NCBI RefSeq assembly: GCF_017349355.1
Contig: NZ_JAFMPM010000006.1
Coordinates: 1,054,001-1,118,000, forward strand
Source of the DNA: Thiothrix fructosivorans
Lineage (GTDB): Bacteria > Pseudomonadota > Gammaproteobacteria > Thiotrichales > Thiotrichaceae
Reading direction: 5' to 3'
Length of the DNA stretch: 64,000 nt
This document shows, in pieces, positions 1 through 13,557 of this stretch (position 1 is the stretch's first letter; each line of letters opens with the position of its first letter). The notes under the pieces were generated by a model. That model did no database searches. It worked only from the letters and a program-made list of their open reading frames with translations, and was not told the origin of the DNA. Both the position numbers and the translations under genes were made by a program.

Positions 1-526
1 CGCGTTGCGTCCTCACTTTGGGGGAACGGGTGAGTTTTGCGGGGTTGTTGTTTGCTTCCATCCAGCCCGTAGAAATAGCCTCAGTGAAAATGTCTGACAG
101 GCTGTTGCGTATGCTTTGCGCCGTCCGAGCCTTGCCCCGCTCAACGTATCCATCCATGAATTCACTGATTAGGCGTGTAGATACCTCTGTTAGTGGCTTT
201 TCTCCGAACTGCTTAACCAGTAGCTTTGCGTAATGCTTTCGCCCCTTGCGGGTACTTGGCTTCATGTCGGTGGCTTCGATCATTGGTAGATACTTGGTTT
301 CAATGAAGGTGGCGAATGTCTTACCGCTGCCGTTGATGCGGTTAAGTATTTGCTGCTCCCGATCGGTGCGGTATTGCGCTTGCAGAGAATGAAGGACTTT
401 GCAGGCGATAACAAAATCCTTTCCCAGTGAATGACGTTTGCCAGTTTCAGGGTGAAGGCAGGTGTAGTACACCGTGCCATTCGCCGCTTTGAAGCTATGC
501 AAACCTTGTGGCTTGCGTTTTTTCAC
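1..526 (-). CDS. Tyrosine-type phage integrase, N-terminal part (runs off window)
   Basis: The minus frame is open from a GTG at 526-524 to the window edge, giving about 175 residues. The start shows a short basic segment and a YYTCLHPETGKRHSLGKDF-type arm-binding beta-sheet region as in lambda-type integrases. It is followed by the SAM-like core-binding helices (FIETKYLPMIEATDMKPSTR, about residues 70-90). The catalytic R-H-R-Y domain lies outside the window. The GTG overlaps the TGA of the excisionase gene by four bases (GTGA), which fixes the start. The gene probably directs integration and excision of the element. The family call is firm; the specificity is unknown. Confidence 0.85.
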   Translation of the reverse strand, partial: MKKRKPQGLHSFKAANGTVYYTCLHPETGKRHSLGKDFVIACKVLHSLQAQYRTDREQQILNRINGSGKTFATFIETKYLPMIEATDMKPSTRKGRKHYAKLLVKQFGEKPLTEVSTRLISEFMDGYVERGKARTAQSIRNSLSDIFTEAISTGWMEANNNPAKLTRSPKVRTQR

Positions 527-711
527 TCACTGATACCCTCGTATGGGTCATAGAATTTCGCATCCTCACGAACGCGGTAGTATTTGCCGTGCCGGATTGG
601 TTGCGGCTGGATTTTCCCAGCTTTCACCCATGCACGAAGTACCCTAATGCTAGGGGTGTGATCTGGATAGCGCAATCCTGCCCATGTTTCAAGTGTGAGT
701 AACTTTTTCAT
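523..711 (-). CDS. xis: Lambda-Xis-like excisionase
   Basis: A 62-residue protein starting at the internal ATG at 711, which overlaps the stop of the upstream gene (ATGA). The order LTLETWAGLRY, then SIRVLRAWVKAGKI, then PQPIRHGKYYRV matches the winged-helix layout of lambda Xis (a LTLQEW start, an RRWVRE recognition helix and a GREYL wing). Such proteins bend attachment-site DNA and bias the integrase towards excision. The gene sits directly upstream of the integrase with a 4-bp overlap, as expected for an xis-int pair. The longer frame to 756 is unlikely because it would overlap the neighbour further. Confidence 0.8.
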   Translation of the reverse strand: MKKLLTLETWAGLRYPDHTPSIRVLRAWVKAGKIQPQPIRHGKYYRVREDAKFYDPYEGISE

Positions 712-1067
712 TGTGCAGCTCTCCGTAGCGGATAAACATAAGCAAACCATTCGCAAGCCTTGCGGATACCAGCAGGCGAAACACCGCCGCTCCCAAAGTC
801 GTGAATATCGCCATCAAAGAATGCTAATAGTTCGGCAAAGTCTAGGGGCAAGCCTTGCGCCGCCATTGATAGCAGTTCAACGCCATTGAGCCTGATTGCG
901 GCTCGTTGTGCTTCAAGCTCTTGCCTTATCGGCTCTTTTTGTTGCCGTGCAATCTCTAGCAAATCGTCCGGTATGGGGCGATCAAGCCACACATCGCCAG
1001 CATCCACCACGAAACGCGCACCAGTAGCGGTGATGTCATTGATAAAACGCTGCACCGGATTACTCAT
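708..1067 (-). CDS. Hypothetical protein with TubC-docking-like N-terminus
   Basis: A 119-residue protein translationally coupled on both sides: ATGA overlaps with the helicase upstream and with xis downstream. Residues 9-50 (GARFVVDAGDVWLDRP, then a helical stretch rich in E, Q and R) resemble the small TubC-type N-terminal docking fold seen as a stand-alone domain in some phage and plasmid replication operons. The C-terminal part is not recognised. Its position between helicase and excisionase suggests a replication or copy-control accessory role. That is inference only. Confidence 0.55.
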   Translation of the reverse strand: MSNPVQRFINDITATGARFVVDAGDVWLDRPIPDDLLEIARQQKEPIRQELEAQRAAIRLNGVELLSMAAQGLPLDFAELLAFFDGDIHDFGSGGVSPAGIRKACEWFAYVYPLRRAAQ

Positions 1068-2611
1068 AAATTCACCGCCTTTTTATGCCCGAATGTTGTA
1101 GACGTTTTAAGTTCATCACGTTCATCACATCCATCACTACTGCGGGTTTGCTTCATAACAACTTCATCACAAACACCCCTAAGTTCATCACAAGAAGATA
1201 TTAAGGGTAATTTCTTAGAGTCAAATTCTGTACGAAGTCTAAGTCCTGAAAGAATAGCGCCTTGACCACCTTTAGTTTTGAGGCGATAACCTTGCTTATG
1301 GGTTGTCTGGATGCCGTATGTCCGGCAATTGTCCAGCACAATGGAACTAAAGCGCTGAAGAGCCATTGGTTCGCGCCCTTGACCTTCACAGTAGTTGCAA
1401 TAGTTAGGGTAAAGCCCTTCGGATGGAAGTTGCTTTTTTGTGCCGATGTAATCCTCTTCCTGATTGGGCGAACACTGCACCACCCTTTCATCCAGCCACG
1501 CCAGCACGGGATTCACTTTTAGTTCCGCTTCAACTTTTTGGCGTTTCATTTCGCCGTCTGGATTGTTGATAAGCTCCACTACTTCGGATTCATCCAGCGA
1601 GAGAAGCCAATTCACTAATCCTGACATTTGCGCCTGCATAGCCTTGATGATGCCGCCGCGCTTGCGGTAGCGACGTTTTTGCTTTTCAGTTGCGCGGTGC
1701 TCAAATTGAACGGGTATTTTCCGACGTGCCAGACCGCTGGTGTAGTCGCTGCTTTGAATGGACTCATTTGCCGCGATCATCACAAGCCCACTAAATACGA
1801 ACGGTTCAGTAGCCTGAATGCCCTTTTTTTCGTAGCGTATAGGGTCGCCGCCTGTAATGGCTTTTAGTACAGCAACTTCGCCGCCGTGCCTGCCTGAATC
1901 TGTGATCTGTGCAAGACGCTTGCCTTTCAGGTTCGCGGTTTCAAACTGGCTTTTTTCCAGTTGCTTCAAGTCGGTAATCACGCGGTTTTCATCGCCCACA
2001 AGCATAGAGCAAAGGTCTAAGAAGGTGCTTTTACCCGTACCGCCTGAACCAGTGAGTTCAAGGTATTTTTGCAGGTCACTTCTGCCAGTGAGAACGGCAT
2101 ACATCCACGCCAGCAAAAAGCGGATAACGGACTTATCGCCGCCTGTTGCGGTCACAAGGTAGCGTTTGACTGTTGGGCAAGTTTCAAGCGGGTCAAATGC
2201 GTATGGTAATGACCAATCAAAAAGCCGTTCACCATATTGCTCTAGCGCCTTGGTGCGTAGATTCAGCACACCGTTAGCCATTGGCAACAGATGACGGCTT
2301 GTTTCCCATTGCTCAACCTGCAAATCAATACGCATAAACTTTTCAATGCTTGATACCAGATTAAAGGCATATCCAGTTTCAGATTTTGCTTTATCCAATT
2401 CGCGTTTAATAAGTTTCTGTGTGGCAATTTCGCGGGATGGTTTCCAGATATTGCCTGATTTGCTGAACCATTGCTGTGTGCTGTCATCCCAACGGATACG
2501 TTTAAGCAGCTTTTCAGCAATAGCACTGGCAAGTTTATTTTGTGGAAGTTCGCCGTCAATATCGGTGTTCGGGATTGTTTCGGCTTCGTGGTCTGCGAAT
2601 GACTTAAACAT
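1064..2611 (-). CDS. D5/P4-type SF3 DNA helicase (primase C-terminal half)
   Basis: A 515-residue protein. Residues about 40-140 match the D5 N-terminal region (QWFSKSGNIWKP, then LPMANGVLNLRT). Next come the SF3 Walker A GSGGTGKST near residue 188, a Walker B-like stretch (LKGKRLAQITD), and the MIAANE sensor followed by GLARRKIPVQFE. The C-terminal region carries a CNYC pair and DNA-binding-like basic residues. Such proteins unwind DNA at the element's own origin, like the P4 alpha protein. The zinc-ribbon/primase half is a separate upstream gene that is broken by an IS. The ATG overlaps the stop of that gene by 8 bases. The last 30 codons are built on repeated GTGATGAA octamers. Confidence 0.88.
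   Translation of the reverse strand: MFKSFADHEAETIPNTDIDGELPQNKLASAIAEKLLKRIRWDDSTQQWFSKSGNIWKPSREIATQKLIKRELDKAKSETGYAFNLVSSIEKFMRIDLQVEQWETSRHLLPMANGVLNLRTKALEQYGERLFDWSLPYAFDPLETCPTVKRYLVTATGGDKSVIRFLLAWMYAVLTGRSDLQKYLELTGSGGTGKSTFLDLCSMLVGDENRVITDLKQLEKSQFETANLKGKRLAQITDSGRHGGEVAVLKAITGGDPIRYEKKGIQATEPFVFSGLVMIAANESIQSSDYTSGLARRKIPVQFEHRATEKQKRRYRKRGGIIKAMQAQMSGLVNWLLSLDESEVVELINNPDGEMKRQKVEAELKVNPVLAWLDERVVQCSPNQEEDYIGTKKQLPSEGLYPNYCNYCEGQGREPMALQRFSSIVLDNCRTYGIQTTHKQGYRLKTKGGQGAILSGLRLRTEFDSKKLPLISSCDELRGVCDEVVMKQTRSSDGCDERDELKTSTTFGHKKAVNL
1112..1191. repeat. Cluster of GTGATGAA octamers (TTCATCAC on + strand)
   Basis: Exact TTCATCAC copies lie at 1112-1119, 1121-1128, 1163-1170 and 1184-1191, with a variant at 1131-1137. 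All are in one orientation inside the 3' end of the helicase gene. The same octamer recurs in the cluster at 13106-13256. Iteron-like binding sites for the element's replication protein are a reasonable reading, but this is inferred. Confidence 0.55.
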
Positions 2612-2800
2612 AATCCACCCCGCTTTTATGTGCGTAGGCTTCGAGTATTGCCGCGTTAAGCTCTTGCGCCGTGTTTACTTCGTCAATGGTAGGCTCTGCA
2701 ATATAACCGCCGTTAAAGCGCACCGCTTGGCGCTGTAGGTATTGACGATGGCGGATTTCATCAATCAGATTTTCGAGCATGGTTAATACATTGCTGTCAC

Positions 2801-4440
2801 GTAATTGATCACATCCCCACCCCTTGCGGTAAAGCGGGCAGGGCAAAGCCAGCGCGGGCAGCGGTAATAACACTGGCAAGATAAGCCAAGGCAGACTGTC
2901 CACGTTTGCGGCAAGTACCGATGATGCTGGCCAGCATGGCAAACGCACGGCTCCCCGTAGCACTCTTTGTGCCATGGTTGGTTTTGCGCAGGATCACCCA
3001 ATGGCGCAACGCCCGCTCAGCCTCATTATTGGTCAAGGGAAGCCACGGGTGGTCAAGGATTCGGAAAATGGCATCCCAATCATTGATGAACTCTTTCGCC
3101 AGTGCCGCCGTCTTGTCATGGGCAGATACGGCATGGATCAAGCATAATGCCCTGAATTCCAGGAGTTTTGCCTGATGGCGTTGACGGATCACGTCGGTTT
3201 GCGTCCCCACCGTGCCGCCTGCTGCCCGCCAAGCGTAAATGTCGTCCTGTAATACCCTCAGCCAAGCGAGGGTGAAGTTGCCAAACGTCCGCCCGTCTTT
3301 GTCCAGTGATTCTGCCAGCCCACGGGCTTTGCGGATCAGGTGCGCCCAGCAACGCAAGCGTTTGGGGTGGTGGCGGTAAGCGGCATAGCCATCACTCATC
3401 AGCCAGCCCCCAAAGTGGGGGCTAATCACGTTGTCGAGCATTTCAATGGTGCGCTGCCCTACGTAGAAACAAACGCTGAGGGTGGTGACGAATGTCCATA
3501 GCCACAGGGCTTCGCCACGCTCTTTCCAAGAGGTTTCATCAATATACAGCACCCCGCCGTCAGCGGTGGCTTCTGCCAACAGCCCTTCCACCAAGGCATC
3601 TTCCAATGGAGAAGCACTCGCGGCTGCTTCCTCAAAACATTGCTGCAACACCCCGACACTTAGGGGAATGCCCAACACCTCCCGCAACAGTTCTTGTGTG
3701 CCACGCAGTGACAAGCGTGAGCGCAGCCGTAGGTGGACAATAAGTGCCGCCAGATTGCCCCCAATCAGCCGCCACTCGCCCACATCAACCTCCGGGTATA
3801 ACGGGTCGGGAGCTTGGCGATGCGGGATATGGCGGCTCACATGACCGCAGGTGCATACGCTATCGTGAAGGTGGTGGCGGGTGGTGATGACGGTCAGTCC
3901 GGGGTTCCCATCCGTGCCAAACTGGATGTCCACACTGTCATAGGCGGTATAAATACGGGAGACAGCCGCATCCAGGGACCTGCCACAGGCTTCACATCGG
4001 CTGGGGTAATGGTGTTCGTCTGCATTGATGGGCGGATGCCATACCCGACCATAACCCGGTGCGCCGGGTTGTTTACCCGCTTTGCGTTTGGCTGGTTGGG
4101 CTGGCTTTGTGCCCGCCACAGCTTCTGGTTCCGGGGTTGGCTTTCCTCTGGCTGCACCCACCCCTTCTGTTTCGGGCAAAGCCACCGTTTTGGGTGACGT
4201 TTCCCACGGGAAACCGCTGCTGGGTGGTTTGGAGGAGTTGTTGGAGTTTTGGTTGATCTGTTCCCGCGCTTCTTTCAGGTCATGCAACAACTTGGTCGAC
4301 AGGTGCAGCAGTTCCTCCGGCGTGAGCTTGGCAAGGTACTGGCTGTTAAGCTGTTTGAGGCTGTGGTCTTTCAGTTGTTGGGTCATCGGGGGAGTGTCGC
4401 AAATTTAGTGCGTTTGGGTAAGGGGGGACTGTTCAGTTAC
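2801..4440 (-). mobile_element. IS66-family insertion sequence, single-transposase type
   Basis: A 1640-bp element. Both ends begin GTAA, as in IS66 elements: the left end reads GTAATTGATCACATCCCC and the inverted right end GTAACTGAACAGTCCCCCC (imperfect repeats). It is flanked by an exact 8-bp direct repeat, GCTGTCAC (2793-2800 and 4441-4448), the target duplication size of this family. It carries only the large transposase, with no TnpA/TnpB accessory genes. It splits the primase gene. Confidence 0.92.
2809..4386 (-). CDS. IS66-family transposase (TnpC type)
   Basis: A 525-residue protein filling the insertion sequence from 54 bp inside one end to 8 bp inside the other. It starts with a leucine-rich coiled-coil-like region and the NSNNSSKPPSSG motif typical of IS66 transposases. 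A zinc-finger region follows (CEACGRS ... CTCGHVS). The DDE core is recognisable in YIDETSW, then LMSDGYAAY and CWAHLIRKAR, with the closing glutamate in PLTNNEAERALR. The reading frame is intact, so the element may still be mobile. Confidence 0.93.
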   Translation of the reverse strand: MTQQLKDHSLKQLNSQYLAKLTPEELLHLSTKLLHDLKEAREQINQNSNNSSKPPSSGFPWETSPKTVALPETEGVGAARGKPTPEPEAVAGTKPAQPAKRKAGKQPGAPGYGRVWHPPINADEHHYPSRCEACGRSLDAAVSRIYTAYDSVDIQFGTDGNPGLTVITTRHHLHDSVCTCGHVSRHIPHRQAPDPLYPEVDVGEWRLIGGNLAALIVHLRLRSRLSLRGTQELLREVLGIPLSVGVLQQCFEEAAASASPLEDALVEGLLAEATADGGVLYIDETSWKERGEALWLWTFVTTLSVCFYVGQRTIEMLDNVISPHFGGWLMSDGYAAYRHHPKRLRCWAHLIRKARGLAESLDKDGRTFGNFTLAWLRVLQDDIYAWRAAGGTVGTQTDVIRQRHQAKLLEFRALCLIHAVSAHDKTAALAKEFINDWDAIFRILDHPWLPLTNNEAERALRHWVILRKTNHGTKSATGSRAFAMLASIIGTCRKRGQSALAYLASVITAARAGFALPALPQGVGM

Positions 4441-4958
4441 GCTGTCACGTCTTGCCTGTTCGTCTTTTTTGGCAATAGCGGCTAGCAAGTTTTTTGCCTG
4501 CTTTTCGGCAATCGCCCTGATTTTATCGCGCTCTTTGTTGTCCAGCGTGGACAAACCGAGATAATCAGCAACGGCTTTTAGTTGCTCTTGTGGAGTCCAG
4601 CCGAAAACATGCCCTAATAGGCTGAATCCATCGCCCGACTGTTGATCGCCGCCGCCACCGCAAAACCACTTACCTGTATTGGCGTAATCGGGCAACACCC
4701 TAAAGCGGTCTTTACCGCCACAACCTTGGCAAGCTGTATGCTTTGTGTGTGAGGTGCTTGCAAGCTGGATGCCCAAGGCGCGGTGAATGCTCTCCCATTT
4801 GCCGTGAGCAGCTTGACGGCAAATAGAGAAGCTAAGGTACTGATTATCTGTGTCGGGCGTGCTATAATTCGCCGCGTAATGTTTTTGATTCTCAGCCCTG
4901 CCAGTTTGTCCGCTGGTGGGGTTTATTCGTTTTGGGGCTTGTGATAATTGAGCGTTCA

Positions 4959-5153
4959 TTATTTGTCGCCCCCATTTAGCCACGCCTGAAAATCGGATTC
5001 CAGCCAGCCCACAAGCCAACTTCCCAGCTTGCGACGTTTTGGGAATTTGCCCTGCTTTTCCCAGCGCAGCAGCGTTGATCTAGATAACCCAGTTCTGTGG
5101 ATAATTTCGGGTTCACGGAGGATTCGATTATTTTGGGTGTTGTCATTGGTCAT
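4959..5153 (-). CDS. AlpA-family DNA-binding regulator
   Basis: A 64-residue protein from the internal ATG at 5153. REPEIIHRTGLSRSTLLRWEKQGKFPKRRKLGS is a MerR/AlpA-like winged helix-turn-helix, followed by WLESDFQAWL at the C-terminus. AlpA proteins activate integrase or excision genes of P4-like elements such as CP4-57. The longer frame to 5399 has no family support before this ATG. The stop overlaps the primase start (TAATG), so the gene heads the primase-helicase-xis-int operon. Confidence 0.8.
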   Translation of the reverse strand: MTNDNTQNNRILREPEIIHRTGLSRSTLLRWEKQGKFPKRRKLGSWLVGWLESDFQAWLNGGDK

Positions 5154-5487
5154 AATATGATTCTCGATATTATGCCGTGCGGTATTTTTTTGGAGCACGG
5201 CGAAAAACAGAAATAGCCTGACTGTTACATCAGAGTAATCCTTGTTTTGCTTCGCGCCGCCTTGCGGGTTGAGAGCTTGCCCCATCAGGGCAAAATACAG
5301 AGGGGTTTTAAACGCTGGTATCTGTTCTAGAAGCCTTGCCCGACAATCATTTATGCCGTACCGCGAATAATGTTTACTGAATGTAGCAGATTTATTCATT
5401 AGATGTCATCTAGGGTTTTAATGTTTAATGAGGTTTTTTTAAAACTGGCAGAACAAGGCGTTTAAGCCCTGCCCTGCCGTGTTTCAA
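5154..5487. promoter_or_regulatory. Intergenic region upstream of alpA-like gene with 13-bp palindrome
   Basis: About 330 bp with no convincing gene, although an upstream in-frame extension of the AlpA gene is open to 5399. A perfect inverted repeat TAGATG-T-CATCTA sits at 5400-5412 and could be an operator. The region is the likely promoter for the alpA-primase-helicase-int operon. No confident -35/-10 pair was picked. Confidence 0.4.
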
Positions 5488-7374
5488 TTAAGCCGCCAAC
5501 AAGTATTTCGGAAATGGTGGCTTTCCGGTGTACTTCGGATTCAGCAGCAACACGCCCTCTTTTGCCGCCCGTGCTTGCCAGATAACAATGAGCGCGTTCA
5601 TTCCTTCGGGTGTAATCGTGCGTTTTTTGCCTTGGCACAAATGAGCGTTAACGAATGAGCGTCCGTCACGGGTAGTCAGTTTCGCCTCTCTCGCTACAAT
5701 CGCCGCTTTCCACTGTTCATATAGCCCGTATCCCTCTTTAAGAATATCCGCGTCAACCTTACCTTGTGCATCCTTCATGGCTTCCAATAGCTCTTTTTCC
5801 GCATCAAATGAATGAGCGCGTTCATTGGTTGGAATGAGCGTGTCATCGGATGCAGTACGTTCATTCCGCTCACCAATGATCTGTTCATTGCTGGAATGAG
5901 CGCGTTCATTGGTTGGAATGATTTTTCCAGCGACGCGCTCAAGGATTGCATCAGAGAGTGGTGCAGGGTTTGGCATAGCTGCAAACGCATCGAATACCGC
6001 CGCCGTAATCGCTTCAGGTGAGCTTGCGCCGCTTGCCTTTACACTGGCTTGGATTTGCTTAACCGTATCCGTCACGGACAAACGCGGGGTTAAATACGCC
6101 AATGTATTTTCACCGGAAAGGGTAGGGGTTTTATCGGTACGCGGGATTAAGTCATAGTCCTCTGCTGTTTTACCTTCGCCCACTGGAAATTGAATTTTCT
6201 GCGGGTAGTTTTTACGGTTCTCAGCATTTAACGCGTCATCCAGCTTATTGCCGATCTTGCCAGCAAATGCGGCTGCGTCGGCTAATACCTGCTTATTGGC
6301 ATAATCAGCACGCGCATATTCAGTGGCGACAATTTCCGGTGCGGATTTTAAACCTTGCTCAAACTTTTTCGCGAATTCCGCAACGCCCTGTTTGGCGGAA
6401 TCTGCCAGCGGGGCAAATGCTGCCATTGGTGCGGATTCACCCGATAGGGCAGGGGGCGCTTCACGCGTATAACTCACGCCATCCACATAACGCGCCTTGA
6501 TTTTGTTGCTGGATACAGCAATGCCCAAAGCACGCATACGGTCTTTTAGCTGACGCAACAAGCCGCCTAGATACGCCATTGCTACTTCCATGCTGCCGAT
6601 AATGATAAAGGCGATTAGGAAAGAGGCAACGATAGCGGGCATCCCGAATGACACCAGTAATAAGACGATAGGCTGCAAAAAACCATCATCGGCTTCGAGT
6701 TCCTTCAACATACCCGTGTCTTGCTTCAATTGGCTGGATGATGCTGTGAGTGAGGCACTACCCGCCATCTGAAAGCCTTCAGCCTTCGCTTGTGCAGCGG
6801 CGATATTGCCCGTTTCGATGCGCTCACAGCGTTGGCGACGCGCTTCCACGGTGTAGCGGCTACAGGCTGCAAGTTCGGTTTGTGCCTTGGCTTTTTCCGC
6901 CATTGCCGCCGCCATTGCGCTACTGATACCCGTGTCAGAGGTAACACCCGCATTCTTAACCCGACCTGCCATGATTTTGAAGGCTTCGCTATTGGTAGCG
7001 GCTTCGTGGCGGGTATCTTCGGCACGGGTCATGCTTTGTCCGATCTCGGCAAACATCGGGAAGGCGATTGCTACAAATAGCACAAAGGCGCGTTGCTTGG
7101 CGTTCAATTCCATTTGGTAGAAAAAGTACGTAAACGCGTTGAAACCGAAGGCGAAGCCCACGGAGATAAACAAGTACGCCAGTTGACCGAATCCCCAATT
7201 CAGCCCGTTCACTGCGTCCCAGATGGGTTTGGATGTGCCTATCATGTTGTGCGTGACAAAAAACGTCATCGCCAAAAATGACGCGATGGTGATGATTAAG
7301 TAACCCGCCGTGATGACGCGGCGTTGTGCTTCGAGTTCATCGTGTGAATAGTTGTCGAACTGATTATTTTTCAT
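5488..7374 (-). CDS. Uncharacterised four-helix membrane protein of the element
   Basis: A 628-residue protein of unknown function. Three hydrophobic segments lie near residues 22-42, 62-86 and 93-112. An Ala/Glu-rich helical loop (about 113-230) holds two cysteines in the segment CSRYTVEARRQRC, and a fourth hydrophobic segment spans about 233-262. The remaining 360 residues are soluble. Near residues 490-525 the sequence repeats IPTNERAHS twice with a NERT variant between. The last 100 residues (KEGYGLYEQWKAA, then GKPPFPKYL) look like a compact domain. No ATPase motif is visible. It is the largest gene of a run of small membrane genes upstream. A role in an envelope structure or exclusion is possible but unsupported. 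Confidence 0.75.
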   Translation of the reverse strand: MKNNQFDNYSHDELEAQRRVITAGYLIITIASFLAMTFFVTHNMIGTSKPIWDAVNGLNWGFGQLAYLFISVGFAFGFNAFTYFFYQMELNAKQRAFVLFVAIAFPMFAEIGQSMTRAEDTRHEAATNSEAFKIMAGRVKNAGVTSDTGISSAMAAAMAEKAKAQTELAACSRYTVEARRQRCERIETGNIAAAQAKAEGFQMAGSASLTASSSQLKQDTGMLKELEADDGFLQPIVLLLVSFGMPAIVASFLIAFIIIGSMEVAMAYLGGLLRQLKDRMRALGIAVSSNKIKARYVDGVSYTREAPPALSGESAPMAAFAPLADSAKQGVAEFAKKFEQGLKSAPEIVATEYARADYANKQVLADAAAFAGKIGNKLDDALNAENRKNYPQKIQFPVGEGKTAEDYDLIPRTDKTPTLSGENTLAYLTPRLSVTDTVKQIQASVKASGASSPEAITAAVFDAFAAMPNPAPLSDAILERVAGKIIPTNERAHSSNEQIIGERNERTASDDTLIPTNERAHSFDAEKELLEAMKDAQGKVDADILKEGYGLYEQWKAAIVAREAKLTTRDGRSFVNAHLCQGKKRTITPEGMNALIVIWQARAAKEGVLLLNPKYTGKPPFPKYLLAA

Positions 7375-7384: not shown

Positions 7385-7765
7385 TTAAATCCAAGATGTC
7401 ATTAGCGTTTGCGCAGCGGTGAACAGTACGGCGCGTGGCGTGTCGTGTAGTGCGTGTGCGACTGCGCCGCATACCACTAGCCCTAAGCCGTTGAAGATGA
7501 ACGGCAAGCCTGTGTGTACGCCCTGTACTAGCTCATAGCTCACTGGCACGAGATTCCCGCCGACGTATGCGCCGCCGTTGAATGCGACGATTAGCGCGGC
7601 AATAAAACGCGCCCATGTGACGTTGAAGAACGGGATTAATGCGTTATCCGTTGGGTGAGTGGATACAGTGTTCCCGAAATTGCTTTCGGTAACATGCGCT
7701 GCGCCGTTGCTGCGTAGCGCTGCCAGTTCCCCATTCTCTGAGGGTGAAAGTAGTGGGTTGCTCAT
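7385..7765 (-). CDS. Small two-helix membrane protein, unknown function
   Basis: 126 residues. After a hydrophilic N-terminus of about 45 residues there are two hydrophobic segments, about 52-75 (WARFIAALIVAFNGGAYVGG) and 88-110 (LPFIFNGLGLVVCGAVAHAL). The ATG overlaps the stop of the preceding gene (ATGA), and the 628-residue membrane protein starts 10 bp downstream, so both belong to one transcription unit. No family was recognised. Confidence 0.65.
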   Translation of the reverse strand: MSNPLLSPSENGELAALRSNGAAHVTESNFGNTVSTHPTDNALIPFFNVTWARFIAALIVAFNGGAYVGGNLVPVSYELVQGVHTGLPFIFNGLGLVVCGAVAHALHDTPRAVLFTAAQTLMTSWI

Positions 7766-7995
7766 AAGCGCACCTCCACGCGTCTGCCATCATCTGCCAG
7801 TTGGTAGATTTTCAGCTTTGCGCCGCCACGTTCGCGGGATAGGAACGCAAGCACCTTCTTAGCAATGGCTAAATCGTCGAACTGGTGCAGTTTTGCATGG
7901 TGGCTTGAACCGTCTTGAAGCGTCACGGGATAGGTGTTATCCCAGCTATACCCGCCCCAAAGTTGGTTGGGGGTTTCGATGATGTAACGGCTCAT
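7762..7995 (-). CDS. Hypothetical protein of the element
   Basis: A 77-residue soluble protein with ATGA overlaps at both ends. It reads as a beta-rich domain (YPVTLQDGSSHHAKLHQF), a helix and a short basic tail. No family was recognised. The strong translational coupling to two membrane protein genes supports it being real. Confidence 0.6.
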   Translation of the reverse strand: MSRYIIETPNQLWGGYSWDNTYPVTLQDGSSHHAKLHQFDDLAIAKKVLAFLSRERGGAKLKIYQLADDGRRVEVRL

Positions 7996-8180
7996 TTGCT
8001 GCCCCGCTTGCCCGTGGCGCTAAGGATGGTCAATACCACGATGACGGCAAACCCGATAAGCACGGGGTCAACTGCCAGCGTTTTGGGTAGGTGGAATGTG
8101 GGCATGTGCAGCACGTTGGTCTGTGCTGCGAGGTATGCGCCTGTGACGATTCCGATGATGAAGGTGATAACGGTTTTCAT
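7992..8180 (-). CDS. 62-residue double-hydrophobic protein (coat-like layout)
   Basis: The chosen ATG at 8180 overlaps the previous stop (ATGA). The protein has an N-terminal hydrophobic segment (MKTVITFIIGIVTGAYLAA) that could be a signal peptide, a short polar linker, a second hydrophobic segment (VLIGFAVIVVLTIL) and a basic tail (GKRGSK). This is the layout of filamentous-phage major coat proteins, but also of many small membrane proteins. No other filamentous-phage gene was found nearby, so the function is left open. Confidence 0.6.
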   Translation of the reverse strand: MKTVITFIIGIVTGAYLAAQTNVLHMPTFHLPKTLAVDPVLIGFAVIVVLTILSATGKRGSK

Positions 8181-8398
8181 GACTTCACCTCCGACAATTT
8201 CCGCCCGATGTATGCAGCCGCATCGTCGATAGCAGCGCAAAAATCAGCGTTTTCAGCATTCTGGATACGCAAGGCTTCGAGGGTGGAACTGTCACGCTCC
8301 ACAATCGCCACCATGACGTTAAAAACGAATTGCTTATGATCTGTCGGTAACGCGTCGAATTTCGCAAGGATGCGTTGTGCTTGCTGGTTATTTTTCAT
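8177..8398 (-). CDS. Hypothetical protein of the element
   Basis: A 73-residue mainly helical protein starting at the ATG at 8398, 2 bp after the preceding stop. Its stop overlaps the next start (ATGA). It has no membrane segment and no recognised family. The operon position between a soluble 109-residue protein and the coat-like membrane protein is the only context. Confidence 0.55.
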   Translation of the reverse strand: MKNNQQAQRILAKFDALPTDHKQFVFNVMVAIVERDSSTLEALRIQNAENADFCAAIDDAAAYIGRKLSEVKS

Positions 8399-8400
8399 GA

Positions 8401-8730
8401 TTACGCCCCCACCATGCCGATTAAAACAGCACGAAAGCCATTGATAGCTTGCTGGCGTTGGTCGATTGGTAGCGCGTCCACAAGGTGAAATGCCGTGATT
8501 GAATGACGGCAATACGCTGGTGCTTCGTGGTCTGCGAAAAGCGGTTCAAGGTCGCGGCTCACCAATCTAAGCAGCTTGATAGCACCATGCAGCGATTCGG
8601 TTTCCGGTTGCTCATTCAAGGCTAGGTATTGGTCGATAATGCACGCGATTGCCGCAATGTCGGCTTGTGCAGTTCCGGCAATGGAACGAATGTCGATATG
8701 CGCTTTAGGCGTTTTTGAGGTATGATTTTT
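8401..8730 (-). CDS. Hypothetical protein of the element
   Basis: A 109-residue helical protein starting at the ATG at 8730, behind an AGAAG ribosome site. The central part (ADIAAIACIIDQYLALNE, then AIKLLRLVSRDLEPLFADHE) resembles the short helical DUF proteins common in phage early regions. The assignment goes no further. The upstream in-frame extension to 8790 lacks support. Confidence 0.55.
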   Translation of the reverse strand, partial: KNHTSKTPKAHIDIRSIAGTAQADIAAIACIIDQYLALNEQPETESLHGAIKLLRLVSRDLEPLFADHEAPAYCRHSITAFHLVDALPIDQRQQAINGFRAVLIGMVGA

Positions 8731-8840
8731 CATACTGGTTACTTCTCTATAATGGTTGTCAGTAGTTGGCTGTTTTGGTGCTGGTAACACCTTGCAGCCC
8801 TTGAGCGCCTCACCCTTCGCAGAGTGGGGCGTTTTCGTTT

Positions 8841-9035
8841 TTAGTCGGCTTGCGTCTCAATCAAGCATTTGCATTTAGTGCCGACTTTGCCTAGGAACTC
8901 GTAATGGTTGTGCAGATACCAAATGCCGCTTTTCAGGTAAGAACATGATTCACTTGGATAGAGCGCTTGACCCATGCCGCCCGTCTTGGCTTCAACAGCC
9001 GCCGTGTAAATCCCTACTGCTTGTTCAAATTCCAT
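8841..9035 (-). CDS. Hypothetical small protein of the element
   Basis: A 64-residue protein with a good ribosome site (AAAGGAATCC) before the ATG at 9035. It carries three cysteines (ESCSYL, then KCKCLIE) and several aromatic residues but no recognised motif. It lies in the leftward operon that starts with the Arc-like gene at 9414. Confidence 0.5.
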   Translation of the reverse strand: MEFEQAVGIYTAAVEAKTGGMGQALYPSESCSYLKSGIWYLHNHYEFLGKVGTKCKCLIETQAD

Positions 9036-9076: not shown

Positions 9077-9244
9077 TTATGCAGCATTACGCCGCGCTTT
9101 AATCCAGCCTTCCACCTCCGTTTCAGCCCAACGGCTTGCCTTACCAAACTTGTGGGGTGCAGGAAACCCGCTTGTTTTGATCAATTCATAAATGGTCGTT
9201 TTCGATAGATTCAGCATGGCGCGTAGCTGGTGCATGGTTAGCAT
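9077..9244 (-). CDS. AlpA-like helix-turn-helix regulator (second copy)
   Basis: A 55-residue protein: LTMHQLRAMLNLSKTTIYEL is the helix-turn-helix, followed by GFPAPHKFGKASRWAETEVEGWI, the wing and final helix of AlpA/Xis-like proteins. The ATG at 9244 overlaps the stop of the Arc-like gene upstream, so the two are co-translated. It differs clearly from the AlpA protein at 4959-5153, so the element has two such regulators. Confidence 0.72.
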   Translation of the reverse strand: MLTMHQLRAMLNLSKTTIYELIKTSGFPAPHKFGKASRWAETEVEGWIKARRNAA

Positions 9245-9414
9245 GGGTTTGTTGCCTCCGTTTGTTGCTGTTGCGCCGCATCTTTTGCCTGTCTCACGAT
9301 GCGGGTTAGTTCCGCGTTCATTGATCGGTCGCCAGTTTTTGCGCATTCTTTCACCCACTGGGATAGGTCGTGGTCAAGTCGTAGCGGGTAAGATTTCGGC
9401 TGTTTTTCTTTCAT
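9238..9414 (-). CDS. Arc-like ribbon-helix-helix repressor, left arm of a divergent switch
   Basis: A 58-residue protein read from the ATG at 9414. The ribbon strand SYPLRLDHDL is followed by the helices SQWVKECAKTGDRSMNAELTRIV, the Arc/Mnt fold. The partner at 9528 has the equivalent SYPLRLETETR strand and a SLNAQIVLML helix, so the two are paralogues facing away from each other across a 113-bp operator region. The stop overlaps the AlpA-like start. The arrangement suggests a genetic switch. Confidence 0.7.
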   Translation of the reverse strand: MKEKQPKSYPLRLDHDLSQWVKECAKTGDRSMNAELTRIVRQAKDAAQQQQTEATNPC

Positions 9415-9527
9415 TGGCTGTTCTCCTTTTTAAATCTCAATAAATTAAATAGAATCTTATACTGAGAATCTCATAGATTCAACTAAATTCATTGAATCGA
9501 ATAGAATCTTTCTGTGAGAATGACGGC
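9415..9527. promoter_or_regulatory. Divergent promoter/operator between two Arc-like genes
   Basis: A very A+T-rich 113 bp with repeated ATAGAATCTT (around 9449 and 9499) and GAATCT/AGATTC half-sites in both orientations, including GAATC-TCATA-GATTC. Ribbon-helix-helix dimers bind such short paired half-sites. It is the probable control region for both transcription units. Confidence 0.5.
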
Positions 9528-9863
9528 ATGAAGCAAGAACCAAGACAACCAGCCTCTTACCCGTTGCGCCTTGAAACAGAAACACGCGCAAAACTTGAAG
9601 CCTTAGCCAAGGCTAACGGTAGGTCACTGAATGCTCAGATAGTGCTTATGCTTGACGGGTTATTGCAATCTGATAGCGAGCAAACCACGCCTGATGGTCT
9701 GGTGGCTGAACGCATCAAGGAATATGTGCGGCAGGAAATGGCGGAACAACAGGCGAAACTTGAATCTATGGCTGAATCCATCAAGTGCGAATTTGCAGAA
9801 CTGTCCGCCCTGCACAATAGGGTTGCGCGTGATCTGGAAGAGCTAAACAAAAGCAGCAAGTAA
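9528..9863 (+). CDS. Arc-like ribbon-helix-helix regulator, right arm of the switch
   Basis: A 111-residue protein starting at the ATG at 9528. Residues 1-45 are an Arc-type domain (SYPLRLETETRAKLEALA, then GRSLNAQIVLML). The rest is a charged helical stretch (EYVRQEMAEQQAKLESMAE) likely to form a coiled coil for oligomerisation. It is one of only two rightward genes in the element and faces the smaller Arc-like gene. A repressor or immunity role is inferred from this layout, as in the P22 Arc/Mnt region. Confidence 0.7.
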   Translation: MKQEPRQPASYPLRLETETRAKLEALAKANGRSLNAQIVLMLDGLLQSDSEQTTPDGLVAERIKEYVRQEMAEQQAKLESMAESIKCEFAELSALHNRVARDLEELNKSSK

Positions 9864-10108
9864 CCGCCCCACTTTATCCGGTTTTCCATACAGCCACGTA
9901 CAGCCGCAACCAGTGGCGTACAGCAATCATGATTATCCACCATTAGTATATTAATCTCTGCAAAGCACTGGTTTTAAAGCGGTTTACCGTAAGCACCGGA
10001 TAACCTTATCCGGTTTGTTATCCGGTTTGGTGGAAAAAAGCCGAACGTAGGCGATTCTTCCAGACTTGCGCGGGTGATTGCCCCAAAGATTCGCCCACGA
10101 TTCCACCA
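9864..10108. repeat. TTATCCGGTTT iteron-like repeats with a DnaA-box-like site
   Basis: TTATCCGGTTT occurs at 9874-9884, 10006-10016 and 10018-10028, the last two 12 bp apart, with the inverted core CCGGATAA at 9996-10003. TTATCCACC at 9933-9941 is one base from the DnaA consensus. CGTACAG occurs twice near 9897 and 9917. No gene is seen here. The region could be an origin or a partition site. Confidence 0.45.
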
Positions 10109-10486: not shown

Positions 10487-10649
10487 AGTTCATCAGTGGC
10501 GTACTTGTTCACGATGCCCGAAAATGACACCGTAGACATTGGGTGTCCGAAAAATGCAGCCAATCCGACAAGTACGATGAATTCGTAGTGGTGTACTTGT
10601 TCACCCTCAGATTGAGGATGGAAACGTTGAAGCCCCCCAGTGAGGTACT

Positions 10650-10757
10650 TCATGCCATATCGGTTTCGAGTCGCAGCTCAACAAGCGCCAGTAGCGAGGC
10701 TAACTCTTCGGTGGTGGCGGTTTCCAGCCATTCGAGAATTGTTTTCAGGTCGGTCAT
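10650..10757 (-). CDS. Very small acidic helical protein of the element
   Basis: A 35-residue frame whose ATG at 10757 overlaps the end of the preceding gene. It begins MTDLKTILEWLETATTEELA and is strongly helical and acidic. No family was recognised. Support is limited to the tight coupling in a chain of overlapping leftward genes. Confidence 0.4.
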   Translation of the reverse strand: MTDLKTILEWLETATTEELASLLALVELRLETDMA

Positions 10758-10993
10758 GGTAAATCCTCATATTTTGGGCAATAGTCGGCAATCCGCTTTT
10801 TGTTGCGCCCGACCAATTCCGCCACGGTTGGAACTTGCAGGCGTTTGCCGCCGTGCTGGGTGAGTAGGTGAGCAACTGCATCATCGGCAACAGTCGCCCC
10901 GTGCAAGCCGTGTAAATTCCACCAAAGCGAGTGCAGGAAACCACGGGATTGAACCGCCTCAGAGATTGCCACGGTCAAAAGCACCGGATTCAC
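10754..10993 (-). CDS. Hypothetical protein of the element
   Basis: 79 residues starting with GTG at 10993, in a GTGA overlap with the preceding stop. It contains a Trp/His-rich stretch (GFLHSLWWNLHGLHGA) and a helical end with KKRIADY. No family was recognised. Confidence 0.45.
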   Translation of the reverse strand: MNPVLLTVAISEAVQSRGFLHSLWWNLHGLHGATVADDAVAHLLTQHGGKRLQVPTVAELVGRNKKRIADYCPKYEDLP

Positions 10994-11097
10994 TTACCAC
11001 CGTCCAGCAATCGCCCGATGTAATGCTGGATGACCAATAGCAGCACGTCGGCTTGTGATGCCGCCACGATTAGCCCGATACAGATTAAGTTATCCAT
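10990..11097 (-). CDS. 35-residue hydrophobic protein of the element
   Basis: A short frame from the ATG at 11097 that overlaps both neighbours. It has one hydrophobic helix (LICIGLIVAASQADVLLLVI) and a GGK end. It is probably a tiny membrane protein. Its reality is supported only by the overlap pattern. Confidence 0.4.
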   Translation of the reverse strand: MDNLICIGLIVAASQADVLLLVIQHYIGRLLDGGK

Positions 11098-11341
11098 GAA
11101 TCGCCCCCTCGCTACCAGCACGAAGCGCCGCAACGTAATCAAGCATGGTTTCCTGCTGATTTTCACCGTATCGCTTGCGGCGGTAGTCGATAATTGCCGC
11201 TTGCCATAATCGCGCCTCTAATGCCCATAGTTCGCGCTGAATCATTGCGGCTGTATCTTTTGCCCATCGGTCACTAGGGGGCGCTACAGGCTCAACAGGC
11301 TTGAAATTCGCGCATTGGCTGCACTGTGATTGCTGCATCAT
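11090..11341 (-). CDS. Hypothetical protein with N-terminal Cys pair
   Basis: 83 residues beginning MMQQSQCSQCANFKP, a CxxC pair that may bind zinc, followed by a basic helical region (YRRKRYGENQQETMLDYVAAL). The ATG overlaps the stop of the gene before. Short CxxC proteins of this kind are common in phage early operons. The function is unknown. Confidence 0.5.
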   Translation of the reverse strand: MMQQSQCSQCANFKPVEPVAPPSDRWAKDTAAMIQRELWALEARLWQAAIIDYRRKRYGENQQETMLDYVAALRAGSEGAIHG

Positions 11342-11556
11342 TTGCCTAACCCCAACTGGGCACGAACCGCCGATTTAAGCACCTGCAAGCCTTTTGCCTG
11401 CGCTAGCGTGTTTGCGAACCCGTCAATTTCAAGCGGGGAAACTCCGTACTGATTCGCCAGTGATTCGCGCTCTAAGCGGGTCATTTGCACCTCACCTGTT
11501 GCGCTGGCGTGTTTGTCTAGCGCGGATTCTAGCGCCTGTAAATCTTCTAATTTCAT
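11338..11556 (-). CDS. Hypothetical protein of the element
   Basis: 72 residues from the ATG at 11556, which overlaps the stop of the Mor-like gene. It is helical (MKLEDLQALESALDKHA, then LERESLANQYGVSPLEIDGF) with a possible helix-turn-helix in the second stretch. No family was recognised. Confidence 0.45.
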   Translation of the reverse strand: MKLEDLQALESALDKHASATGEVQMTRLERESLANQYGVSPLEIDGFANTLAQAKGLQVLKSAVRAQLGLGK

Positions 11557-12032
11557 GGGTTTTCTGCCTGTGCGTGTTCGAGTTCTTTGGGTAAAAGGAT
11601 TTTCAGCTTTCGCAATATTTCGCGCTGCTGGAAACATTGGCGTTTCAAGTCGGCAAGTTGTCGCTTTTTATCCGCAATTCGCCCACCGATGTCGGTAAGT
11701 TCCCGAAGGTCAGCAATCTGGCGCTGATAAACCCGACTTGGTGTGAGAGCCGCCCCTTTGCCGAATGCTTGTGACCTGTCGCGGCTTTGCATCAAGGCTG
11801 GCTTAGTTAAAAACGTCTTGATTCGCGGTATGTACATTTGCAGACCGCCCAAACCCTTAATAACCGCCAATTTGCAGGATTCCGCTGGTGAATATCCGCG
11901 CTCCAAGAAATTCCTCAGCTCACGGTCAATCAAGCCCAGCGACTCAGCCCACGCCGTTTTGTCGGTGAAATTGTCCAGAATTTCCAAAACGCGGTCGCAT
12001 TGGGAATCTGTAAGGTCAATGTCATTCGTCAC
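11553..12032 (-). CDS. Mor-like putative transcription regulator
   Basis: 159 residues. The segment AVIKGLGGLQMYIPRIKTFL matches the GG-x-x-x-YIP turn that links the dimerisation and DNA-binding parts of Mu Mor/C-type activators. The C-terminal third is a charged coiled-coil-like helix (QIADLRELTDIGGRIADKKR) unlike Mor, so the identity is tentative. It is the first gene of a leftward chain of six coupled genes. Confidence 0.45.
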   Translation of the reverse strand: MTNDIDLTDSQCDRVLEILDNFTDKTAWAESLGLIDRELRNFLERGYSPAESCKLAVIKGLGGLQMYIPRIKTFLTKPALMQSRDRSQAFGKGAALTPSRVYQRQIADLRELTDIGGRIADKKRQLADLKRQCFQQREILRKLKILLPKELEHAQAENP

Positions 12033-12125
12033 GCCAGCACCTCGATTAAATATTGTGATGCGCTCATTTTGGCGGATTTGGGTCGTTTCTTAATAACGAG
12101 CTGTGAGCGGGGCGATATGGTCAAA

Positions 12126-12221
12126 AAGGGGGTTTTGTCAGTTTTGGCAGTGCTACGGCGGCACACATTCCAGAAAAAAAACCCATCGAAGGGGGTTTTG
12201 TCAGTTTTGGCAGTGCTACGG
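12126..12221. repeat. Two exact 33-bp direct repeats
   Basis: Positions 12126-12158 and 12189-12221 are identical over 33 bp (core GTTTTGTCAGTTTTGGCAG), with starts 63 bp apart. They lie in the gap between the Mor-like gene and the resolvase terminator and give an apparent repeated peptide in one minus frame. A regulatory or recombination role is possible. No gene is supported at 12033-12264. Confidence 0.7.
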
Positions 12222-12264
12222 TGAGGCGCTTTCTTGTTTTTTTCTTTCTGTGAATGGCAGACAC

Positions 12265-12290
12265 AAAAAAGCCGCATCAGGTACGGCTCT
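12265..12290 (-). terminator. Rho-independent terminator of the resolvase gene
   Basis: On the minus strand an AGCCG/CGGCT hairpin is followed by a run of T residues (the A-run at 12265-12270 on the plus strand), 25 bp after the resolvase stop. A nearly identical copy is at 13296-13321. Confidence 0.65.
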
Positions 12291-12314
12291 CAATTCGTGA
12301 TGCTAGCGCGTGAT

Positions 12315-12887
12315 CTATGCCGATTCTTTCGCGCCTACCAGCCTGTAAACGCTGTTGCGTGCAATCTGGTACTTATCGGCAATGGCTTGCATGGAAAGGA
12401 TGCCAGCTTTAACGTCTGCTCTCAGTGCATCAAGCTGTTCATCGGTCAATTTCGCCTTTCTGCCAAACTGCACGCCTTTAAGTTTTGCCGCCCGTCTGCC
12501 TTCGTCACATCGAGAATTGATAAGGTCGCGTTCAAACTCTGCCAGACTGCCCAAAATGTTGAACAGTAATTTGCCCGTGGGTGTGGTGGTGTCAATGTTT
12601 TGGTCGAGCACAATAAAGCCCACGCCGTTTTTCTGTAGCTTGCTGGTGATGCTTGTCAGGTCATTCATGGAACGCGCCAGACGGTCGAGCTTTGTTACTA
12701 CAAGCGTCCAGCCCTCACCACCCAATTCTAAGAAGTCTAGCGCCTTCTGAAGCTCTGCCCGATCATCTGCGGATTTGCCTGATTGTTTCTCAAAGAATAT
12801 TTTTTTGCATCCAGCAGCTTGCAGCTTGTCCAGTTGGGTTTGGTAGTCTTGCCCCGTGCTTGAAACCCGTGCGTAACCGATTTTCAT
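12315..12887 (-). CDS. Serine recombinase (resolvase/invertase family)
   Basis: A 190-residue protein starting at the ATG at 12887. It shows the catalytic serine context IGYARVSSTGQD (Ser near residue 10), then LVVTKLDRLARS and FNILGSLAEFERDLI of the catalytic domain. A helix-turn-helix ends it (SMQAIADKYQIARNSVYRLV). The length is normal for Tn3-type or Pin-type enzymes. Its upstream gap carries inverted TACTAAA motifs that could be its target site. It may resolve multimers of a replicating form of the element. Confidence 0.92.
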   Translation of the reverse strand: MKIGYARVSSTGQDYQTQLDKLQAAGCKKIFFEKQSGKSADDRAELQKALDFLELGGEGWTLVVTKLDRLARSMNDLTSITSKLQKNGVGFIVLDQNIDTTTPTGKLLFNILGSLAEFERDLINSRCDEGRRAAKLKGVQFGRKAKLTDEQLDALRADVKAGILSMQAIADKYQIARNSVYRLVGAKESA

Positions 12888-13105
12888 GATGTCATCCCCT
12901 GTTTGTGTCATGCCGTTGCATGTTGTGTAAAAACTGTAACTTAACTTGCAACTATTGTACTAAATGTCCTAGATGTTGTCTAACTGTATTTTGTTACAAC
13001 TTTTAGTACAGTCATGACACGGCTTGAACCCGCATTCTACGCACTGATACAAACTTTCTTGATGTGTACTAAATATTGTAAGTTTTAGTACAGCCTGATT
13101 TGCTT
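12888..13105. repeat. Inverted TACTAAA repeats upstream of the resolvase (res-like)
   Basis: GTACTAAA or its complement TTTAGTAC appears near 12957, 13003, 13066 and 13086. The last two form a close inverted pair, GTACTAAA and TTTTAGTAC, around an A+T-rich core. Spaced paired sites just upstream of a resolvase gene are the usual layout of res sites. No gene is seen here. Confidence 0.45.
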
Positions 13106-13256
13106 GTGATGAACTCACCATCTGATGTGATGCAATGCGCCGTTATTCCCCCGCGCTGTGATGCTTGTTACGGACTTGTGACGGACTTGTGATGAAGGCA
13201 TTTTTTCAAGTGCTTGATTTTATTAAGGGTGTGATGAATGTGATGAATGTGATGAA
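13106..13256. repeat. Second cluster of GTGATGAA octamers
   Basis: Exact copies lie at 13106-13113, 13189-13196, 13231-13238, 13240-13247 and 13249-13256, the last three in tandem with a 9-bp period. Variants GTGATGCA (13127) and GTGATGC (13158) and two GTGACGG also occur. This is the same octamer and orientation as in the helicase 3' end. The stretch has no supported gene. Confidence 0.6.
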
Positions 13257-13295
13257 CTTTGAACGTGTGCAGAATTCAGGGAATGTGACGGACAC

Positions 13296-13321
13296 AAAAA
13301 AGCCGCATCAGGCGCGGCTCT
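13296..13321 (-). terminator. Terminator-like hairpin, near copy of the resolvase terminator
   Basis: An AGCCGC-7-GCGGCT stem with the T-run on the minus strand. About 29 of 31 positions match the copy after the resolvase. No intact minus-strand gene ends just to its right, so it may be a duplicated piece of the element or may block transcription entering from the flank. Confidence 0.5.
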
Positions 13322-13452
13322 TGGTGGGAAGTTATTTGTAAAACTAACAGGTAAGCGATTGTTTTTCATAGCGTCATAATGGTAACTATTGGTGTGCTTT
13401 TCCTTGCCTTATATGTGGTTTAAGTTATTGTTTTTAGTTGGAAAAAGTCAAT

Positions 13453-13557
13453 TTATCCGACTATGTTCCACGAGCAACCGTTGGTGACTTGCAGGATCAG
13501 CGATTCTGCTTCACTGGGCGGGCGGAATACGGGTTCGATGTAGGTGATGGTTTGCAT
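13453..13557 (-). pseudogene. Radical-SAM protein gene, 5' fragment at element border
   Basis: The ATG at 13557 opens a frame containing EPVFRPPSEAESLILQ and then VTNGCSWN, the characteristic start of a radical-SAM family whose next residues should complete the CxxxCxxC iron-sulfur motif. After 31 codons the match stops (IVG-stop), after only the first of the three cluster cysteines. The cut coincides with the end of the element's repeats. The most economical reading is that integration split this chromosomal gene, with the larger 3' part left of the window. Confidence 0.72.

Follow-up and report, generated by a model that had tools for sequence, protein, structure and literature searches.

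The left end of a 64,000-nucleotide stretch of the Thiothrix fructosivorans genome (hereafter the window, G000:C6:1054001-1118000, where G000 is this genome and C a contig) raises the question of what kind of mobile element lies there and why that element should encode a 628-residue membrane protein. To judge from its ends and gene content, it is a site-specific integrative element that carries its own replication genes; it belongs to an apparently undescribed family, which we read as satellite-like, and gene neighbourhoods across the genus indicate that the large membrane protein and a smaller one beside it are a cassette recurring on unrelated replication backbones in Thiothrix. Patterns detected suggest that filamentous sulphur bacteria of this lineage host a restricted group of small integrative elements, with a membrane module that is recurrent, testable and had no match above cut-off in four profile libraries. 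The explanation that we favour, tentatively and with rather less than even confidence, is that this is an integrative, probably satellite-like element whose membrane pair tethers the element DNA or its replication complex, and which is transferred by a helper phage.

Boundaries and gene content of the element

Positions are window positions, position -648 (counting 0) being position 17352 of the fetched locus L008. The element is 14,112 bp long, its left end lying 649 bases before the window start and its right end at 13463. It is flanked by a 14-bp direct repeat, TGTTCCACGAGCAA, with the left copy at -648 (L008 17352) and the right copy at 13464; this was the longer of two matches of at least 11 bp when a 600-bp region was compared with an 8500-bp region, and it shifts by one base the right end of 13462 given in the initial annotation. 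On the minus strand a frame "...ESLILQVTNGCSWN" ends at the right copy, which there encodes part of the CSWN of the radical-SAM motif, and "CICSWNNCTFCEMYTAPQKRF..." begins at the left copy, while an uninterrupted homologue in genome G003, 55% identical, reads through the insertion point as "SLILQVTNGCSWNKCSFCEMYTAPQKKF". These frames indicate that the element splits a host gene, which we take to be a radical-SAM gene by its CxxxCxxC motif, and is inserted within that motif. The interrupted gene was matched in four of 16 genus genomes, strongly in this genome and G003 and weakly in two. Scans of the window found no tRNA and no Rfam match.

A capsid and terminase set or a conjugation system left of the window would make this an ordinary prophage or conjugative element and was looked for. 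The remaining 608 bp of int and a further 41 bp were all that separated the window from the interrupted chromosomal gene, so that no such set is hidden outside it. Pfam scans of the element proteins, the part left of the window included, show no capsid, portal, terminase or tail family and no relaxase, coupling ATPase, mating channel or type IV secretion family, in agreement with the earlier description of a small integrative element without structural phage or conjugation genes. The features on which the argument depends are as follows.

1..526, minus strand: int, a lambda-like tyrosine recombinase; the window holds the first 175 of 377 residues, the rest lying at -607 to 0 (L008 17393-18000)
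523..711, minus strand: excisionase xis, 62 residues (PF07825 Exc, E=1.9e-9), clustering with the xis of L061
1064..2611, minus strand: D5/P4-family replicative helicase, 515 residues (D5_N, DUF5906 and TIGR01613 above cut-off)
1112..1191, minus strand: left cluster of four copies of GTGATGAA, candidate origin iterons (repeat count)
2800..4443, minus strand: IS66-type insertion interrupting the zinc-primase gene, transposase at 2809-4386 (PF03050)
4405..5019, minus strand: front part of the zinc-ribbon primase, own sequence from about 4441 (PF08273, E=7e-8; phrog_510)
4959..5240, minus strand: AlpA-type regulator 1 (PF05930, E=4e-16)
5488..7374, minus strand: large membrane protein, 628 residues (hydropathy, models, genus-wide relatives)
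7385..7765, minus strand: small membrane protein, 126 residues, two hydrophobic peaks, partner of the large protein (cluster c1; alignment, hydropathy)
9077..9244, minus strand: AlpA-type regulator 2 or excisionase-like protein (PF12728, PF05930, phrog_66)
9238..9414, minus strand: leftward Arc-type repressor (PF03869), with relatives in eight other fetched loci
9466..9480, no strand: perfect palindrome GAATCTCATAGATTC, candidate operator between the Arc genes, read from the sequence
9492..9863, plus strand: rightward Arc-type repressor (PF03869), whose true start may be an ATG near 9528
12315..12911, minus strand: serine resolvase, 198 residues (PF00239, E=1.6e-41), 84% identical to one in L050
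13106..13256, plus strand: right cluster of five copies of GTGATGAA, candidate origin iterons (repeat count)
13464..13477, no strand: right copy of the attachment core TGTTCCACGAGCAA, with the 5' part of the interrupted gene beyond

Profile matches confirm the integrase, excisionase, D5 helicase, two AlpA proteins, divergent Arc pair and serine resolvase that had been named from the sequence. The divergent Arc pair is found in L010, L056, L057 and L079 too. Int matched PF22022 above and PF00589 below the cut-off, as well as phrog_7244; its match to PF09003 was just above the cut-off with the window part and just below with the whole protein. The pair of xis and int, earlier called P4/lambda-type, stands as a pair, but both members look lambda-type rather than P4-type.

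Spread and settings of the membrane pair

The membrane module had been thought to lack any known counterpart. Counterparts occur in the same genome and throughout the genus: the 628-residue protein had six further hit places, corresponding to five further proteins, in this genome, and relatives in all 16 Thiothrix genomes. With an alignment of 33 rows (A1, 33 of 49 large-protein open reading frames (ORFs), fragments and near-duplicates having been dropped and the broken-up locus L053 kept), 34 of 63 genomes of the family-level group matched, an order-level search giving the same 63, and so did three of 369 genomes in a class-wide sample, all from the same family-level group. A contig scan with the relative that is linked to lexA returned 18 loci titled Thiothrix, Thiolinea, Thiotrichaceae or unplaced Gammaproteobacteria/Proteobacteria. 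Among plasmid records just five, from Thiothrix, matched the window protein, and none of 50,697 phage records did. Searches of genome-contig and viral-contig sets with the window protein found no relatives, and neither the A2 alignment nor the large protein of L010 found one among viral contigs, yet L183 has one (local profile E 8.8e-13), so these last absences mean little.

Against profile libraries the 628-residue protein had no match above cut-off (none in Pfam, best E 0.17 in PHROG and 0.049 in NCBIfam) and none in PADLOC at E 0.1. The membrane proteins and adjacent small genes together gave nothing above the curated cut-offs of Pfam and NCBIfam and nothing better than E 0.04 in PHROGs, though not each small gene was run against each library.

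The pair occurs in two settings. In the first, the order is lexA, a gap of 21-146 bp, small gene and large gene, seen in 15 of the 16 genomes (L012 8339-10821 and 14 further loci); no such locus appeared in G005. At all 15 loci lexA is directly upstream, and it is preceded in 14 by an exact GTTC-N7-GTTC direct repeat, a type known from alphaproteobacteria. The E. coli-type LexA box, CTGT-N8-ACAG, was found upstream of lexA at one of the 15. The element in the window contains no GTTC-N7-GTTC box. At six of the 15 loci the gap between lexA and the small gene is 91-146 bp and by eye seems to hold a terminator, so that a single transcript is not assured.

The second setting comprises 31 loci away from lexA, and for 28 of these the element or plasmid concerned also has a replication gene (L077, L078 and L081 being outside the 28). 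These genes were of several kinds: gpA-type rolling-circle initiators (PF05840), toprim primase and/or DUF3987, D5, AAA_25, Rep_O or related or annotated plasmid initiators, and phrog_453. The gpA gene belonging to L053 sits across insertion sequences (ISs), in L176. At four loci (L010, L045, L047, L174) and on the plasmid contig L013, the initiator is connected with the small membrane gene by 4-bp overlaps, directly or via a small gene, and the large gene begins 11-13 bp after the small one (203 bp in L013). Contig C4 of this genome encodes, next to the pair, a replication protein identical to the one on the T. fructosivorans plasmid pTfr153. The small membrane genes beside the large gene fall into clusters c1 (21) and c2 (18), with other small genes occupying their place in L061, L077, L079 and L080.

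Conservation of int, xis and helicase together with the module, suggested earlier as a check that the system is real, was found in one second Thiothrix genome (L061). There int is 52% identical, xis and a primase fragment fall in shared clusters, and large, small and Arc genes are present; the helicase is of AAA_25 type, replacing D5.

Two plasmid arrangements were also observed. The T. unzii plasmid pTunz5 (L082, 14837 bp) looks as if it consisted of two 7.4-kb units joined head to tail, with most protein accessions present twice and a gene for a free-standing C-terminal domain being annotated shorter in one copy. On the plasmids of about 153 kb represented by L013 and L084, the neighbourhood of the pair includes cas1/cas2, a Cas4-type gene (L084) and an apparent CRISPR array.

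Architecture and mosaicism of the large protein

The large protein is presumed to consist of transmembrane segments (TM) 1-3, an extracytoplasmic helical hairpin, TM4, a cytoplasmic linker and a basic C-terminal domain. Hydropathy shows four or five peaks in 28 of the 33 rows and three in five; the last TM is preceded by a loop of about 120 residues, where the predicted models have two long helices. This loop has exactly two cysteines in 29 rows and none in four, cysteines that fall in a predicted TM segment or border TM4 being left out of the count; in the hairpin of the window protein they are C171 and C183, and such pairing is what a disulphide would give. E263 and S129 are invariant in all 33 rows, E110 is E in 32 and D in one, and acidic residues are conserved at TM3 and TM4. 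A Zorya-like motor was considered for these acidic residues and set aside, PADLOC giving no match. A holin or release role for the small protein was likewise set aside: no endolysin family was seen, and the lexA-linked copies are retained.

In most rows the C-terminus is a basic domain with an end like "...EGVLxLNPxYxxGKPKYLLA"; by eye four rows (L052, L061, L077, L081) have instead a CPxC zinc-ribbon-like end, for which Pfam gave one weak match (L077) and none for L061 or L052. Residues 391-480 of a lexA-linked relative are modelled as helices and a beta hairpin, winged-helix-like, with a block predicted local distance difference test score (pLDDT) of 70-89. The C-terminal domain may bind nucleic acid.

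The window protein is a mosaic. Its residues 422-627 are 79% identical to the protein of an element on contig C5 of the same genome and residues 486-627 are 88% identical to that of G014, while residues 23-383 are just 32-33% identical to those same two proteins. On a tree of the N-terminal core, closely related cores were positioned on different replication modules (L009/L011, L042/L055 and L046/L050, with pair branch lengths below 0.03; likewise L061/L079, with a branch length of about 0.2). The core of the window protein is on a very long branch (3.75), and its place in the tree is therefore unsure.

Broken primase gene and candidate origins

The primase had been described as split, but the gene was broken by a recent IS66-type insertion rather than being naturally in two parts. 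The inserted unit, about 1.64 kb, is 99.9% and 99.8% identical to two further copies in the genome (L144, L145), which also set its ends, and in the ORF list the primase frame appears to resume beyond it at about 2604-2799. With its primase gene broken, this copy of the element may be impaired or unable to replicate.

The octamer GTGATGAA, chosen after being seen, has nine copies in the element against 0.47 expected (first-order model; maximum 3 in 200 simulations) and two in the remaining 50,523 bp of the window. Other octamers reach near-equal counts in the element (eight for CATCCAGC, seven for several); of four such octamers checked, three were scattered over the element and one, AATGAGCG, lay mostly inside the large gene, so clustering is the distinctive part of GTGATGAA. 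The stretch fetched for L061 has four copies in about 70 bp.

Sister elements with P2-type head genes

At C8:1438 of this genome lies an element with P2-type genes for scaffold/protease (phrog_73), major head protein (phrog_70) and small terminase (phrog_74). The head gene was matched in nine of the 16 genus genomes, in eight at E < 1e-100 and in G009 weakly. In all eight strong genomes relatives of the P2 genes O and M adjoin the head gene, in the order O-N-M (five) or N-M-O (three), with an IS splitting the O gene in G013; in the seven genomes other than this one these neighbours were assigned by similarity to C8:1438 and not by profile. Terminase_5, the sole large-terminase model searched, gave weak matches in two of the 16 genomes, away from the sister elements.

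A large membrane gene is present in six of the eight sister elements (L011, L045, L051, L173, L174, and L176/L053 of G007). That of L051 (9404-12645) is cut in two by a 448-residue gene (cluster c103), probably a transposase by eye, and in L176/L053 ISs lie between the small and large genes. In L175 the large gene is replaced by one for a 389-residue protein with cysteines and a zinc-ribbon-like end, unrecognised by profile (E 0.16); L177 is broken by ISs and has no large membrane gene in the fetched stretch. At least 80 loci of IMG/VR matched, four of which were inspected: L182 and L183 have the three head genes without the P2 neighbours Q and P, L183 with a large gene, while L184 and L188 are P2-type with Q and P.

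The stretches of three head genes, also present in L182 and L183, are:

L011 1764-4185
L045 15359-17780
L051 17943-20385
L173 8832-11353
L174 9165-11819
L175 8597-11033
L176 8161-10689
L177 6912-10868

Most lie near int and a ProQ/FinO-type gene, and no portal was recognised in them.

Comparison with known elements

P4-like satellites share with this element the small integrative format, a tyrosine integrase, AlpA, a D5/P4-family primase/helicase and two short-repeat clusters as candidate origins, two repeat clusters being the layout of P4 ori and crr. The element differs from them in its lambda-like int and separate Xis, in having zinc primase and helicase as separate genes, in the membrane cassette, and in that no P2-type portal was detected in the genus. 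Pfam gave no match to Psu, Sid or delta among the element proteins; Psu (PF07455) was found in none of the 16 genus genomes, but in none of 14 control genomes either. The initial label of P4-like satellite is thus partly supported: int, AlpA and an alpha-like helicase are present, but there is no match to Psu, Sid or delta and no known helper. It is because sister elements carry P2 head genes, and not because of the window element itself, that a satellite is proposed.

Capsid-forming phage-inducible chromosomal islands (cf-PICIs) are described as encoding portal, connectors, large terminase and HNH besides capsid, that is, a full head set (PMC10690885). The sister elements resemble them in that they themselves encode, close to int, a major capsid protein, a scaffold/protease and a small terminase; they differ in that no head genes beyond O, N and M could be found in them, and all three are absent from the window element. 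Should it be functional, a capsid set of three genes and no portal would represent a satellite strategy intermediate between that of P4, with no capsid genes, and that of cf-PICIs. Phage-inducible chromosomal minimalist islands (PICMIs) integrate at fis, occur in Vibrionaceae and depend on a virulent helper (PMC10803314). Shared with PICMIs are AlpA, integrase, primase and the lack of capsid genes, whereas the radical-SAM gene site, xis, the repeat clusters and the membrane cassette are not. A virulent-helper dependence of the PICMI style would fit the lack of a detected helper prophage. Literature on Thiothrix prophages and satellites, as covered by titles and abstract starts in open-access holdings, included nothing on such elements.

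Possible functions of the membrane pair

Under the tethering explanation favoured here, the helicase and primase would, after excision, replicate the circle from the repeat clusters. The pair would form an inner-membrane complex anchored by a periplasmic disulphide-bonded hairpin and the TM core, and the cytoplasmic C-terminal domain, winged-helix-like in the model of a relative and zinc-ribbon-like in some, would bind the element DNA or replication complex. Element DNA might thereby be kept at the membrane while it is replicated, segregated or passed on to packaging, and transfer would be by a helper phage. Transfer by a helper is proposed because sister elements carry P2-type head genes with no portal or tail recognised in them; as prophages that could act as helper were not seen, one would have to suppose that the helper is virulent. 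The architecture is supported by sequence, whereas we infer the function. A precedent in principle is p16.7 of phi29, which is embedded in the membrane and binds both the viral DNA and a protein of its replication (PMC4974454). The likeness proposed is one of working principle, that of a membrane organiser of phage DNA replication; the protein here differs in having four TM helices and a large hairpin.

Several observations weigh against tethering and helper transfer. Proximity by itself is a weak argument, since in an element of 13 kb no gene can lie far from a replication gene, and replication labels are still clustered on the core tree (13 changes against a shuffled mean of 19.9). That 15 of the 16 genomes have a pair linked to lexA points to a host role. 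The primase gene of the window element is broken, and the element has none of the three head genes. The P2-type portal PF04860 was found in none of the 16 genus genomes, using a model that finds the portals of two P2-type IMG/VR contigs and has matches in four of 14 control genomes. The structural models are weak (mean pLDDT 57 and 63), the C-terminus of the window protein is modelled less well than that of the relative (pLDDT 40-67), and sequence and fold searches matched no solved structure at E <= 0.001, returning from the PDB just long-helix and coiled-coil look-alikes, in searches that barely covered the C-terminal domain.

A broader version of the same idea is rather doubtful: that a large and undescribed family of integrative satellites exists in Thiothrix and its closest relatives, its members swapping replication modules (rolling-circle gpA, toprim/DUF3987, D5, AAA) but having the membrane cassette in common. 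Many would make a P2-type shell from three genes of their own and borrow portal, motor and tail from a virulent helper; the cassette would be a new, element-specific type of membrane tether for replicating DNA, with nucleic-acid-binding tails that can be exchanged, and the lexA-linked relative would tie it to SOS.

An alternative explanation, to which we give some but not much credence, is that the pair is a defence or superinfection-exclusion device of satellites, plasmids and host, with the hairpin sensing or blocking incoming DNA and the cytoplasmic domain sensing phage nucleic acid. Anti-phage genes are carried by some satellites (PMC10803314), the pair is found on many co-resident elements and beside lexA, and exchange of cores and tails would fit an arms race. 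This would not account for at least five loci where the pair forms a row with replication initiators instead of occupying an accessory slot, or for a relative that keeps its place beside lexA in 15 of 16 genomes; moreover PADLOC did not match the pair, and among 10 element proteins it gave a single weak match (the 73-residue protein, E 0.008, 13 bits) and no known defence system. It is unlikely, too, that the pair acts as a checkpoint of the envelope or of cell division, linked to SOS and borrowed by mobile elements. Membrane proteins adjoining lexA are division inhibitors in several bacteria, and both the direct adjacency to lexA at all 15 loci, 21-146 bp away, and the exact box upstream of lexA at 14 of them would agree with this, but the box does not occur within the window element, the gap of 91-146 bp has an apparent terminator at six of the 15 loci, and a nucleic-acid-binding-like tail would be unusual for a division inhibitor.

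We regard as very improbable the idea that the element is a decayed prophage or plasmid with the membrane genes as accidental passengers. The recent IS66 copy that broke the primase gene, and may leave this copy unable to replicate, is consistent with decay, yet L061 and numerous elements of the genus share a similar plan, all 33 rows retain E263 and S129, and the attachment repeats are intact. There is similarly little reason to prefer a mobilizable, conjugation-helped integrative element in which the pair serves DNA transfer or coupling: the nucleic-acid-binding-like tail on a membrane protein, the resolvase and the rolling-circle initiators of relatives could be read in this way, but Pfam shows no relaxase, coupling ATPase or mating-channel family among the element proteins scanned, and PLSDB lists the five Thiothrix plasmids with relatives as non-mobilizable.

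Other genes of the element and its neighbourhood

The remaining genes are small, and those from 7762 onward have no relative among the fetched loci.

708..1067, minus strand: 119-residue protein, no Pfam match, partial relatives in L048 and L050 (tblastn)
7762..7995, minus strand: 77-residue protein, with 4-bp overlaps with its neighbours
7992..8180, minus strand: 62-residue protein, hydrophobic by eye
8177..8398, minus strand: 73-residue protein
8401..8733, minus strand: 110-residue protein
8841..9035, minus strand: 64-residue protein
11090..12032, minus strand: three overlapping small genes (83, 72 and 159 residues)

The initial annotation saw a single run of at least eight coupled small genes. 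Overlaps of 4 bp link four genes (7385-7765, 7762-7995, 7992-8180 and 8177-8398), the gene at 8401-8733 begins 2 bp off, and the overlapping genes at 11090-12032 are a separate run, an arrangement that does not support one run of eight. Genes were called locally by a simple codon-score method, which misses some, in the window the AlpA gene at 4959 and the Arc gene at 9238.

To the right of the element, near-duplicate frames of 82 residues lie at 14949-15197 and 16646-16894, and between them is a gene pair at 15877-16463, HigB-like and HigA-like as named by eye.

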